From Planctomycetota bacterium (GTDB taxonomy: Bacteria > Planctomycetota > Planctomycetia > Pirellulales > Pirellulaceae), in assembly GCA_026692905.1 (NCBI GenBank), contig JAPLNL010000127.1, positions 1-44,096 of the forward strand: 44,096 bases of DNA. The letters run 5' to 3'. The translations under genes and the position numbers were made by a program. Below are positions 327 to 44,096 of this stretch, one piece after another. The notes beneath the pieces were generated by a model, which worked only from the letters and a program-made list of their open reading frames with translations, searched no databases and was not told where the DNA came from. The stretch's first letter is position 1; each line of letters starts with the position of its first letter.

Positions 327-2132
327 ATGTCACTCCATTTTCCTCGACTTCCGCTTCCTCGACGCGGGTCAGCCAAGGCGATTTTGATCTTGATTGTCGC
401 GCTCGCTACTTGCGGGCTAGGCGGCTACGCTTGGTGGCAATCAAAAGGTTCTGGAATCTACTCCGCTTCGAAAGACGAGCCGATTTTGCATGAAGTGCAA
501 CGTGGGCCTTTCGATCATATTGTTTTGGAGCAAGGCGAAATTGAAAGCAGCAGTAATAACGAGGTTAAGTGCGAAGTAAAAGGCCGCGGCGGTAGTGGTA
601 CCCCGATTCTGTCACTCGTCGCCGAGGGAATTTACGTTAAAAAAGGGGATAAATTGTGCCAGCTCGATTCATCGGCACTCGAACAAGACGTAAAAAATCA
701 GCGAATCGTCGTTAGCACGGTTGAATCCAATGTTATCAATAGCGAAGCCGCCGTCAGCAAAGCAGCTATCGCAAAGCAAGAATATCTTGAGGGAACTTAC
801 CTCACAGAGCGAAGTGCGATTTTGAGTGAGATTGCACTTGCCGAACAGGGACTTCGCAAGGCCGAATTGTCACTTGAAAGTGCAGAACGACTCGCCGTGA
901 AAGGAGTCCTTAAGGCTCTCCAAATCGAATCGGAGCAGTATGCACTCAGCAACGCAAAGAGCAATTTGGTTTCAGCCAATGGAAAGCTTCGTGTTCTCGA
1001 TAACTTGACCAAGGAAAAAATGTTGGTCCAACTGAATAGCGATATCGAGACAGCTCGTGCCAAGCTGGATTCCGACAAGAGCACTCTTGTCGAAGAAAAG
1101 GAAAAGCTCGAAGAGATTAAGGGCCAAATCAAAGCTTGCGCAGTTGTAGCACCAGCAGATGGACAAGTTGTTTACGCTAACAAACAAGGTAGTCGTGGTG
1201 GTTCTGATTTTACCGTGACCGCAGGTGCTCTCGTTCGCGAACAGCAAACCATCTTTTTGCTTCCCGATCCAACTCGCATGCAGGTCAAAGCCAAAGTTAA
1301 CGAGTCTCGAATTACTCTGATTCGAGACGGTATGCCTGTCAAAATCAACGTGGGTGCCGCGGCTGACGAATTGCTCGGGCGTGTTATCAAAGTAAACAAG
1401 TATGCCGAACAAGGAAACATGTGGGGGCCAACGGTCAAAGAATACGTTGTTATCGTTCAGATCATTGAGCCACCACAAGAGATACGAACCGGCATGACAG
1501 CCGAAGTACGGATTTTCGTTGAGCAGATCGCCGATGCTGTGCAGTTGCCAGTACATGCGGTTTACGAAACGAAGAAGCATCATTTTGCTTTGGTCAAAAA
1601 CGGCAATGCATGGGATACACGTGAAATCAAAATCGGTGCGACCAACGACAAATACGTGACTGTGGTAGATGGCGTAGATGTTCAAGACATGGTTGTTCTC
1701 GATCCTCGAAACCATCTCGACAAGATGGAAATTCCAGTCATTGCAGAAGTCGACGATCGAGAGAAACTCGTCAAGATCGCCGCCGAATCACCGAAGGGCG
1801 CGGCTAAATCCGGCCCAGAAGCAAGAGGTGCCGGTGGACCTCCAGGCGGACCTCCAGGCGGTGCTGGTGGCATGAATGCTGAATCGGCTGCTGCAGGTAT
1901 GCTTAGCCGCATGGACACCAATGGAGACGGAAAGGTTAGTGCTGCTGAAGTGGCCGACAACGAACGTATGAAAAACAGCTTTGCAGACTACGACACGAAC
2001 AAGGATGGCTCCATCGACCTAGCCGAAATGGTTGCCCAATTTCAAAAGCGAATGGCTGCGGGCGGTGCTGGCGGAGGTGGACCTGGCGGCGGTGGCGGTA
2101 GTGGAGCTTCGCGAGGAGCGCCGTCCAACTAA
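327..2132 (+). CDS. HlyD/MacA-type periplasmic adaptor with C-terminal EF-hand pair
   Basis: This 601-residue protein is a membrane-fusion subunit of a tripartite efflux system. It would link the inner-membrane permease encoded downstream to an outer-membrane channel. A single transmembrane helix lies near residues 17-37, followed by the barrel/lipoyl half, a long helical hairpin rich in Glu, Lys and Ala (about 120-260) and the returning lipoyl and beta-barrel parts (about 270-440). After about residue 495 the protein departs from the family: a Gly/Pro-rich linker, two canonical 12-residue EF-hand loops (D530-E541 with DTNGDG, D556-E567 with DTNKDG) and a Gly-rich tail. Calcium binding is inferred from the loops. 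The stop overlaps the next start by one base, indicating an operon with the ATPase and permease. Adaptor identity is firm; the exported substrate is unknown. Confidence 0.9.
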
Positions 2133-2925
2133 TGGTCTCAGCAGAAAAACCGCAAGCGACACGATTTGCTTGCCGCGTCGCAGATTTAAAAAAGGAGTAT
2201 GTCTTAAAAAGTGAAACGGTACGTGCCCTGCGTGGCGTGACGTTTGATGTTCCTGAAGGTGACTATGTCGCAATCATGGGTCCATCAGGCTCAGGGAAAA
2301 GTACGCTCCTCAATGGAAAAGTACGCTCCTCAATATGCTCGGCTGTCTTGACCAACCTACGTCAGGCAGTTTGTGGCTCGGCACCGACGACGCCGCCAAA
2401 ATGAATGACGATCAGCTTGCTGATATCCGATCACAGAGAATCGGCTTCGTCTTTCAAGCTTACAATTTGATTCAACAACTAACTGTGGTGGAAAACATCC
2501 AGGTTCCTTTGTTCTATCAGGGCAAATCGCTAACCAAGCAACAAAAAGAAAAGAGCATCGAACTCGCTCACTTGGTTGGATTAGGAGAACGTCTCGGTCA
2601 CCGTCCAACCCAGCTCAGCGGTGGTCAGCAGCAACGCGTAGCGATCGCCCGTTCCCTAGTAAACGACCCCTTCTTTATCTTGGCTGACGAACCGACCGGA
2701 AATCTCGATTCCCGAACCGCAGAAGAGATTTTGCAACTTTTCGAAAAGCTCAATAACGAAGGCAAGACGATCATCTTGGTAACACACGAAGATGAAGTTT
2801 CCAAGCGGGCCAAACGCGTCGTCCGTCTCAAGGATGGTCGCTTGCAATGGGACCGCCAAAACACTCTGGAAGTCCGACAGGCTGCCGCTAAATTTGCTTT
2901 TGAAAACTTGCCGGTGGAAGAATGA
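2132..2925 (+). pseudogene. MacB/LolD-type ABC transporter ATPase, frame broken by a 20-bp duplication
   Basis: The ATPase of the efflux operon is split over two reading frames. The first frame (2132-2404) gives the N-terminus and Walker A ([12 protein letters not shown]), then runs into 30 unrelated residues. The second frame (from the ATG at 2335 to 2925) gives MLGCLDQP, the Q-loop (VFQAYNLI), signature LSGGQQQR, Walker B with ILADEPTG, D-loop NLDS and H-loop VTHED. A perfect tandem 20-bp repeat at 2295-2334 lies exactly at the junction. Removing one copy restores a continuous 257-residue ATPase of normal family length. As written, neither product has both Walker A and Walker B. The gene overlaps the permease start by ATGA. 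It could be a real recent mutation, a reversible slipped-strand variant or an assembly error. Confidence 0.85.
2295..2334 (+). repeat. Perfect 20-bp tandem duplication inside Walker A codons
   Basis: The unit ggaaaagtacgctcctcaat occurs at 2295-2314 and again at 2315-2334 with no mismatch. Twenty is not a multiple of three, so the duplication shifts the ATPase frame. The second copy ends directly before an ATG (2335) that opens the continuing frame. Confidence 0.97.
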
Positions 2926-4247
2926 GTCTTTGGATTGGAACTATTCAGCTTGGTGTCAAAAGCCTTTGGCTTCACCCTCTCCGCTCGTTGTTGACGGTTC
3001 TCGGTATCTTTATCGGCGTCGCTAGCGTCATCTGGCTACTGGCCATCAGCAAAGGCATCGGCGATGAAGCCCAAAAGCAAATTGAAAGTCTTGGTGCGGA
3101 CACGATCATGATCCGCACGATCAAGCCGCCAAGTGCGAAGATGGCAACGACTGGCTTAACACCCTACGGCCTGACCCGCGAAGACTATGACTTGCTCGTC
3201 TCTACGGTACCTACGATTCGCAGCGCCTTGCCGATACGTGAAATGCGCCGCCAATTTCAATTCAAAGATCGCAAGCTCGACGGACGCCTAGTTGGTTGTA
3301 CCCCTGAATATGCCGACGTTACCCGACTCAAAATCCGCTCTGGTCACTTCATTACGGATGCCGAGAATTTTGCGATGGACACTCACTGTGTGATCGCAGC
3401 TAAAGTTGCCGACCGATTGTTTCCCTACGAGGATCCCGTCGGACAGCGTATCTACATGCCCGAGAACAAGAATTTTTACTTGGTCGTTGGAGTGCTAGAG
3501 CCGAAAAGTGCGACCGCGGCGATCGGTGGCTCCATGGCTGCTCAAGATTTTTCGAACGACGTCTACATTCCGATCAAAACTTTGCAGCAGCGAATCGGCG
3601 ACGTAGTGATGAGCTTCAGCGCAAGCTCTCGAGAGGGCGAAAGTATCGAGCTCAATCAAATTACTCTTCGAGTTCGAGAAGTTGCTGACGTAAAGAGAAC
3701 CGCCGAGTTAGTCGAAGATGCTCTTTCGAGTCACAGCAAAATGGAAGACATCGCCGTCGTCGTTCCACTAGAATTGCTTGAACAAGCCAGAACAACGAGA
3801 GCTATGTTTATGGTGTTCATGGGAATGATCGCTGCGATATCGCTATTGGTCGGCGGTATTGGAATTATGAATATCATGTTGGCTACCGTTACAGAACGTA
3901 CGCGAGAGATTGGTATTCGTCGAGCTCTCGGCGCAAAGAGGCGAGACATCATTCGCCAATTCTTGGTTGAAACCAGTGTACTGAGTTTGGCAGGTGGGAT
4001 ATCGGGGATTCTATTCGGCCTCCTTTGCGGTCCTGCCGTAAACGGGGCTAGAATTTTGGCCAATCTTTGGTTCGAAAAACAGATGGCGGGACTCCCCGAT
4101 GTCGTTCGGACGGTCCAACCAGCCGTCGTTCCCGAAAGCATCCCTGGCGCGTTCTTTATTTCGTTGGCTGTCGGACTAGTCTTCGGAATCTATCCAGCCA
4201 TGCGGGCTGCAAAGATGAATCCGATCGAAGCCCTTCGGCACGAGTAG
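2922..4247 (+). CDS. MacB/FtsX-family ABC transporter permease
   Basis: This 441-residue inner-membrane permease completes the efflux operon. One transmembrane helix near residues 24-43 is followed by a large periplasmic domain of the MacB_PCD type (about 45-280). Three C-terminal helices (about 290-317, 347-370, 408-430) form the FtsX domain. The cytoplasmic stretch TERTREIGIRRALGAKR between helices 2 and 3 is the hallmark of the family. Family members use ATP hydrolysis to drive periplasmic conformational change rather than direct membrane transport. The ATG overlaps the ATPase stop as ATGA, so its translation is probably coupled to that gene and could suffer from the frameshift upstream. 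The product itself looks intact. The substrate cannot be read from the sequence. Confidence 0.92.
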   Translation: MSLWIGTIQLGVKSLWLHPLRSLLTVLGIFIGVASVIWLLAISKGIGDEAQKQIESLGADTIMIRTIKPPSAKMATTGLTPYGLTREDYDLLVSTVPTIRSALPIREMRRQFQFKDRKLDGRLVGCTPEYADVTRLKIRSGHFITDAENFAMDTHCVIAAKVADRLFPYEDPVGQRIYMPENKNFYLVVGVLEPKSATAAIGGSMAAQDFSNDVYIPIKTLQQRIGDVVMSFSASSREGESIELNQITLRVREVADVKRTAELVEDALSSHSKMEDIAVVVPLELLEQARTTRAMFMVFMGMIAAISLLVGGIGIMNIMLATVTERTREIGIRRALGAKRRDIIRQFLVETSVLSLAGGISGILFGLLCGPAVNGARILANLWFEKQMAGLPDVVRTVQPAVVPESIPGAFFISLAVGLVFGIYPAMRAAKMNPIEALRHE

Positions 4248-16806: not shown

Positions 16807-16872
16807 CCTAAGCACGACGCGCAAGCTAGTGAATCAACTATCCAATTCACTAGCTTGCGCTTCGTGCTAAGG
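16807..16872 (+). repeat. Family A palindrome, complete copy
   Basis: A 66-bp near-perfect inverted repeat. The left arm begins cctaagcacgacgcgcaagc, the right arm ends gcttgcgcttcgtgctaagg, with the loop caactatcca between them. It lies in the leader region of the histidine kinase gene, between divergent kinase and MarR genes. Confidence 0.9.
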
Positions 16873-26234: not shown

Positions 26235-26609
26235 ATGGGCACTGCCCCCTGTAGCCCCTGTAGACCCTGTAGACCCTGTAGACCCTGTAGACCCTGTAGA
26301 CCCTGTAGACTTCTAGGGGAGAGTGACCGGATTAGACACCCTCCCGCTGGGAGGGTCGAGCGTAGCGAGGGGAGGGGGAGGTGCCAACAACGATTGCAAA
26401 TGTCAGTTCACCCTCCCCGGGCCGAAGGCCCGCCCCTCCCCGAGGGAGGATGACATCATGCCGATGTGCTTAGCGTCCTACTGTTCTAATCCAGCGGGTC
26501 GATTACGATACTTTCTGAGCAAGGAACGCTGGGGTTCGACCAGACGATCTTTGCCGCTGCAAACACGCTGGTTGCCCACTCAATAACATTCGAAATTTGA
26601 AAAATACTT
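26235..26609. other. Intergenic with 9-bp array and G/C-rich palindromes
   Basis: This gap holds the 9-bp tandem array at 26246-26308. A region at about 26335-26455 follows with words such as accctcccgctgggagggt and ctccccgggccgaaggcccg, which fold into strong hairpins. Open frames across it translate into Pro/Cys/Arg repeats and are not credible genes. An RbsD/FucU gene begins at 26610 with no clear ribosome binding site. Confidence 0.65.
26246..26308 (+). repeat. 9-bp tandem array, seven units
   Basis: Two units of cccctgtag are followed by five of accctgtag, head to tail. The flanks (ctaggggagagtgaccgg on the right) match the short dispersed word at 5790-5830, so the array is a local expansion of that word. 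Confidence 0.95.
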
Positions 26610-38870: not shown

Positions 38871-39199
38871 GACAGATACTCTAGCATCGGCCGCCTAAAG
38901 GCGGCACTCCAGCCTGCCTACGCTTCGGACTGCGACTCTCTCCACCGCTTAGCACGCCAAGCATTTGCGACTTTGGCGGGACATGCCCACCAGTCGCTGC
39001 CCTTGGCTAGCTTGGCCCTCCCGCACCGCAGCGAACTTGGGCCTTGTGCACCGCAAGCGAACTTGGGCATTGTGCCCAATGTTCGCAACATGCTTGGTGT
39101 GCTAAAAGCCCATCGCTCTACCCCGTGTGGTTCGAGTTCCGTGTGGTTCGAGTTCCGCGTGGCTCGAGTTCCGCGTGGCTCGAGTTCCGCAATTAGCGG
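38871..39199. other. Convergent intergenic with short direct repeats
   Basis: Between two convergent genes. It holds two imperfect copies of gcaccgcagcgaacttgggc (about 39021-39072) and the four-unit 16-bp array at 39125-39188. A frame of 114 codons crosses the region, but it is built of repeat peptides and runs into the lactonase gene on the other strand, so I do not call it. Confidence 0.6.
39125..39188 (+). repeat. 16-bp tandem array, four units
   Basis: Two units of gtgtggttcgagttcc followed by two of gcgtggctcgagttcc, without spacers. The pairwise identity pattern suggests two rounds of duplication. Confidence 0.95.
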
Positions 39200-43860: not shown

Positions 43861-44096
43861 ACGCCTAGCACGACGCGCAAGCTAGTGAATCTAGTATCCA
43901 ATTCACTGCGAAGGTTGCGTGCGGCACGCCTAGCACGACGCGCAAGCTAGTGAATCTAGTCTCCAATTCACTGCGAAGGTTGCGTGCGGCACGCCTAGCA
44001 CGACGCGCAAGCTAGTGAATCTAGTTATCCAATTCACTGCGAAGGTTGCGTGCGGCACGCCTAGCACGACGCGCAAGCTAGTGAATCTAGTCTCCA
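43861..44096 (+). repeat. Family A tandem array, 65-66-bp units, running off the window
   Basis: Units begin with acgcctagcacgacgcgcaa at 43861, 43926, 43991 and 44057, giving periods of 65, 65 and 66. Each has the family A left arm, a loop variant (ctagtatcca, ctagtctcca or ctagttatcca), then attcactgcgaaggttgcgt and gcggc in place of the normal right arm. Units differ at one or two loop positions. The fourth unit is cut by the window end. Confidence 0.95.

Follow-up and report, generated by a model that had tools for sequence, protein, structure and literature searches.

A perfect 20-base tandem duplication puts an exporter ATPase gene out of frame directly behind Walker A in a Planctomycetota draft genome

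A 20-base sequence, present twice in direct tandem, divides the gene for a MacB/LolD-type ATPase into two open reading frames. The window, by which we mean the whole stretch of DNA analysed, is one entire contig (C127) of 44,096 bases from a draft assembly of 148 contigs, 5.96 Mb and 96% completeness. All relative loci fetched that span the site carry a single unit, and both halves of the broken gene are undecayed. On balance, we favour a real and very recent duplication in one lineage that broke the exporter gene.

The duplicated unit and the divided gene

The affected gene is the second of three that occupy bases 327-4247 in the overlapping order adaptor, ATPase and permease. We take this order to be like that of MacAB. 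The features of the region are as follows.

327-2132, plus strand: HlyD/MacA-like periplasmic adaptor whose C-terminus has an EF-hand stretch (Pfam HlyD_3 and EF-hand); frame open
2132-2404, plus strand: ORF1, 90 amino acids, comprising ATPase residues 1-61, Walker A in full among them, and a further 29 residues out of frame
2295-2314, plus strand: tandem unit 1, 20 bases
2315-2334, plus strand: tandem unit 2, 20 bases, identical to unit 1
2335-2925, plus strand: ORF2, 196 amino acids, the remaining ATPase without Walker A, starting from the ATG at 2335
2401-2404, plus strand: ATGA, where the ORF1 stop overlaps an ORF2-frame ATG; a possible termination-reinitiation point
2922-4247, plus strand: MacB_PCD/FtsX permease (Pfam), whose ATG overlaps the ATPase stop; frame open

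The initial annotation had reported two identical 20-bp units where the ATPase changes frame, and this was confirmed. The unit GGAAAAGTACGCTCCTCAAT occupies 2295-2314 and 2315-2334 in exactly two copies, to which Tandem Repeats Finder assigns 100% identity, a copy number of 2.0 and a score of 80. By our own estimate, a perfect 20-base tandem match would arise by chance at about 4^-20 per position, which is far too rare to account for it. The bases flanking the array share none with the ends of the unit, so that the repeat is not extended and there is no microhomology at the junction; this favours neither a mutation nor an assembly error. A pair of CTCA motifs (2290-2293 and 2309-2312) was rejected as the source of the unit, since their spacing is 19 and not 20.

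The duplication shifts the frame by 20 bases, a number not divisible by three. The frame that begins with the ATG at 2132 closes at the TGA at 2402-2404. The Walker A motif, GPSGSGKST (G50-T58), lies complete within ORF1, and the frame is lost after residue 61. The break had previously been placed inside Walker A, which does not hold: the motif is intact in ORF1 and the break falls directly behind it. The copied unit includes the K-S-T codons of the motif. With Walker A found only in ORF1 and the rest of the ABC ATPase domain only in ORF2, no single polypeptide carries both. The prediction that a one-unit gene encodes an intact protein of 257 residues was borne out. The 61 residues before the break and the 196 of ORF2 add up to 257, as many as the public protein P0001 has. 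This protein matches ORF2 at 100% identity throughout, and its first 61 residues depart from those of ORF1 at position 3 only. Near-identical unbroken proteins of 257 amino acids exist.

Both ORF1 and ORF2 match Pfam ABC_tran, and the best NCBIfam matches of ORF2 are to MacB (1.1e-54), DarD and LolD. Residues 16-234 of P0001 align with MJ0796 (PDB 1f3o, E-value 1.9e-66), as well as with structures of MacB (5gko and 5lil) and LolD (2pcj and 7arh). Pfam, NCBIfam and the PDB therefore support the earlier assignment to the MacB/LolD type at the family level. None of the NCBIfam rows listed (25 of 118 for ORF1 and 25 of 186 for ORF2) reached its cut-off. The MacB equivalog cut-off of 966 bits was missed by ORF2 (185.8 bits) and by the permease (165.3 bits), but this model describes a fused protein, and a score that high was out of reach for the separate pieces. 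The MacB model, NF007826, covers the ATPase and the permease in 648 positions, whereas here they are separate genes, with ORF2 matching positions 53-237 and the permease 264-648. The adaptor matched the RND_mfp and MacA models below their cut-offs (50.8 of 342 bits for the MacA equivalog).

Compared with MacB/LolD-type systems, the adaptor here bears EF-hands and the ATPase gene is broken. The C-terminus of the adaptor, at 1836-2105 of the window, is rich in Gly and Pro and has an EF-hand motif as well as a repeat of 12 bases. To our knowledge, such a Gly/Pro-rich EF-hand end is not familiar from MacA-like adaptors.

The site in relatives and the age of the break

The genus set comprised 27 genomes, the own genome included, and was searched with P0001. 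An unbroken orthologue with 82-99% identity, no internal stop and a frame of at least 255 codons was found in 24 of the 26 other genomes. For the remaining two, G004 (83% complete) and G018 (80% complete), this search gave only paralogues at 50-53% identity. In G004, a DNA search located the permease together with the 3' portion of the orthologue, running into the end of contig C130; neither the P0001 nor the DNA search found an orthologue in the 80% complete G018. The own genome also encodes an ATPase paralogue, 48% identical, on C119.

Relative searches yielded 83 loci, 67 of which span the site. One of these, L203, is the window, and the other 66, all from relatives, have one unit. In the DNA alignment the one-unit loci lack exactly 20 bases at the site and are otherwise ungapped over query positions 140-225. 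They include places that were fetched two or three times, and represent 15 named records as well as the 24 genomes with an unbroken orthologue (L179-L202). Genome G021 has the nearest relative locus (L005/L030), with 87% DNA identity over 4,164 bases. A search for the 40-base array pattern with up to three mismatches matched one of the 27 genomes, the own genome, which is a weak test as most relatives diverge at 12-30% of bases here; the site alignment takes its place.

Strains of the same species were represented only by proteins (P0001). The permease of the window (P0242) occurs on two contigs in the protein database, the longest having the window's own length of 44,096 bases. For P0001 and for P0244, a permease 99% identical to that of the window, the longest contig given has 13,293 bases. 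This equal length suggests that an unbroken ATPase and the permease of a sister strain lie together on one contig. The 90-residue ORF1 product was absent from the best 120 of 1,809 matches. This is a weak result, as the contig of the window seems to be in that database and its ORF1 was likewise unlisted, which makes the database no guide to the broken form in other genomes.

Short ATPase products on other contigs (P0123, P0137, P0172, and P0168 with P0120) stop or change frame within Walker A or close to it, at residues other than the one at which the ATPase of the window breaks. P0168, P0120 and the permease P0264 all lie on contigs of 2,362 bases and are perhaps one locus. Errors, mutations or pseudogenes, and contig ends could each have produced these short products, and we cannot tell these apart.

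We then compared the genes with those of the nearest relative (L005). Among the 61 codons of the first piece of the ATPase gene, 17 differ synonymously and 0 non-synonymously; for the second piece the counts are 55 and 2 among 202, with codons 56-61 included in both pieces. The corresponding figures are 136 and 3 of 441 codons for the permease and 185 and 33 of 599 for the adaptor. That the differences in both ATPase pieces are almost all synonymous points to strong purifying selection until very recently, with no decay. The break is therefore either very recent or not real. This agrees with the initial annotation, which had described the adaptor and permease as intact and the event as very recent or an artefact: both flanking frames are open, and near-identical unbroken 257-residue proteins are public.

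Mutation, assembly error, switch or split gene

The choice between a null mutation and an assembly error is a judgement, and we prefer the null mutation. Under this explanation, a single 20-base tandem duplication would have arisen in one freshwater Pirellula-like lineage (freshwater is read from the isolate names of the nearest named records) and would have shifted the frame of the MacB/LolD-type ATPase gene immediately after Walker A. A short dead product would then come from ORF1, and from ORF2, if restarted, an ATPase that lacks Walker A. In carrier cells the adaptor-ATPase-permease exporter would most likely be off, and the overlap of the genes might also reduce translation of the permease. 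The duplication, the frame break, the single unit in relatives and the undecayed state of both halves are observed, whereas a real mutation with loss of function is what we infer. Tandem arrays are common in the genome and their periods lack the peak at 20 that a systematic overlap-joining error would give, which speaks for this choice. Against it, no independent assembly confirms the broken form, although the absence of its product from the best 120 matches is weak evidence. Given the strong conservation of the ATPase gene, a dominant null allele would also be somewhat surprising. The event resembles an ordinary null allele by short tandem duplication, in that it is a one-off frameshift of a conserved gene in one genome, and we found no feature that distinguishes it from one.

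The assembly error is possible, though we lean against it. Here the assembler or a contig-joining step would have written a 20-base overlap twice, and the organism would have one unit and a working gene. A length of 20 equals k-1 for k = 21. The window is one entire contig of a 148-contig draft, the array has exactly two units with no extension, and the two-unit form is present in 0 of the 66 spanning relative loci. The contig of 13,293 bases, which appears to bear both the unbroken ATPase (P0001) and the 99% identical permease (P0244), is also consistent with an error. Arguing the other way is how rarely arrays split genes and how few have a period of 20 in the part of this genome that we sampled. 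We sampled 2,111,038 bases in 121 stretches (35% of the genome), consisting of the window and the first 20 kb or less of contigs C1-C120. This sample had 214 perfect tandem rows with a period of at least 9, some of which are pieces of one longer imperfect array, and 91 of the rows have non-triplet periods. There was no peak of periods at 20 in these 2.11 Mb (6 of 214 rows), and the 20-base arrays with exactly 2.00 copies were two, in the window and in L074. The density of arrays (214 rows in 2,111,038 bases, about 101 per Mb) was similar to that in the loci of 24 named relatives (17 in 204,398 bases, about 83 per Mb), so the own genome is not strongly unusual in this respect.

Of the 91 perfect arrays with non-triplet periods, sampled from 2.11 of the 5.96 Mb, only the one in the ATPase of the window was found to split a gene. 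The frame filter behind this count required at least 40 open codons before the array, at least 60 behind it and at least 150 together, as well as a short continuation of the old frame; it misses breaks at gene ends. Seven rows at five places passed. Judged by their ORFs, the four places outside the window were rejected as gene splits: all are intergenic except L170, which falls in a leader upstream of the probable start. One of the inspected stretches, L065, contains a masked run. That no second gene-splitting array was found in this 35% sample argues against joining errors of a systematic kind, but a single error need not recur. Two further short arrays in the window, at 26247-26310 (a 9-base unit repeated 7.1 times) and 39123-39190 (a 16-base unit repeated 4.2 times), lie outside the ORFs matched by Pfam.

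The initial annotation had also raised a reversible slipped-strand switch, in which slippage or recombination between the units would bring the gene back into frame often enough to be useful. In principle, one unit can be lost from a perfect short direct repeat. Waite et al. (2001, 2003) reportedly described spontaneous sequence duplications that cause high-frequency phase variation in pneumococcal capsule genes. These duplication papers are cited in PMC13410964, PMC4022640 and PMC3784515, and PMC4022640 describes capsule loss through a tandem duplication within wchA. As in those cases, which show that tandem duplications able to switch genes exist in the literature, a tandem duplication within a reading frame turns the gene off here. 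High-frequency switching is claimed for the capsule genes, whereas the gene here is not a capsule gene and the duplication is known from one assembled sequence. We found no positive evidence for a switch. Close relatives do not show both states, as all 66 spanning loci have one unit and 24 of the 26 other genus genomes are unbroken, and the site has two units only, with no repeat tract or sign of recurrent gain and loss. According to the review PMC11868660, phase variation calls for spontaneous reversion at a high rate in both directions, and a locus without demonstrated reversion is not to be classed as phase-variable. We thus regard a switch as unlikely. The fuller scenario of a contingency switch, with one-unit and two-unit cells coexisting in a wild population and loss of a unit turning an envelope exporter back on, seems slightly less probable again.

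We consider it highly improbable that the gene is functionally split or recoded, with both products working after a -1 slip or a restart at 2335 or 2401. On paper, the second unit offers a candidate -1 slip site (A AAA G), and the ATGs at 2335 and 2401 could serve for restart, the last ORF2-frame stop before 2335 being at 2260. The earlier suggestion of a restart after the second unit stands to this extent, and the product would indeed be without Walker A. However, the frame is whole in 24 genomes of the genus, ORF2 does not include Walker A, and the slip or restart site was created solely by the duplication.

If the null mutation is real, a fresh gene loss has been caught before decay in a wild freshwater bacterium, which would be useful for asking whether loss of the exporter is selected. 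If it is an artefact, it cautions against inferring pseudogenes or switches from draft contigs. Neither outcome alters the general picture, and the event is confirmed but ordinary.

A dispersed palindrome and the contig starts

A dispersed imperfect palindrome, CTAGCTTGCGC[G/T]TCGTGCTAG, occurs at many places in the own genome, often in tandem arrays. Its core is found in the window at 17, 16826-16853, 18773 and 43882-44078. The own genome has 310 copies, the nearest relative (G021) has 49 and G009 has 2, with 0 in the remaining 24 genus genomes searched. A reversed control pattern gave 0 in all 27 genomes. The repeat looks like it expanded recently in this lineage. Of the 121 contig-start stretches, the window included, 25 have the palindrome core within their first 200 bases, compared with 48 of 5000 random 200-base pieces. 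This excess at contig starts suggests that the repeat probably breaks the assembly.
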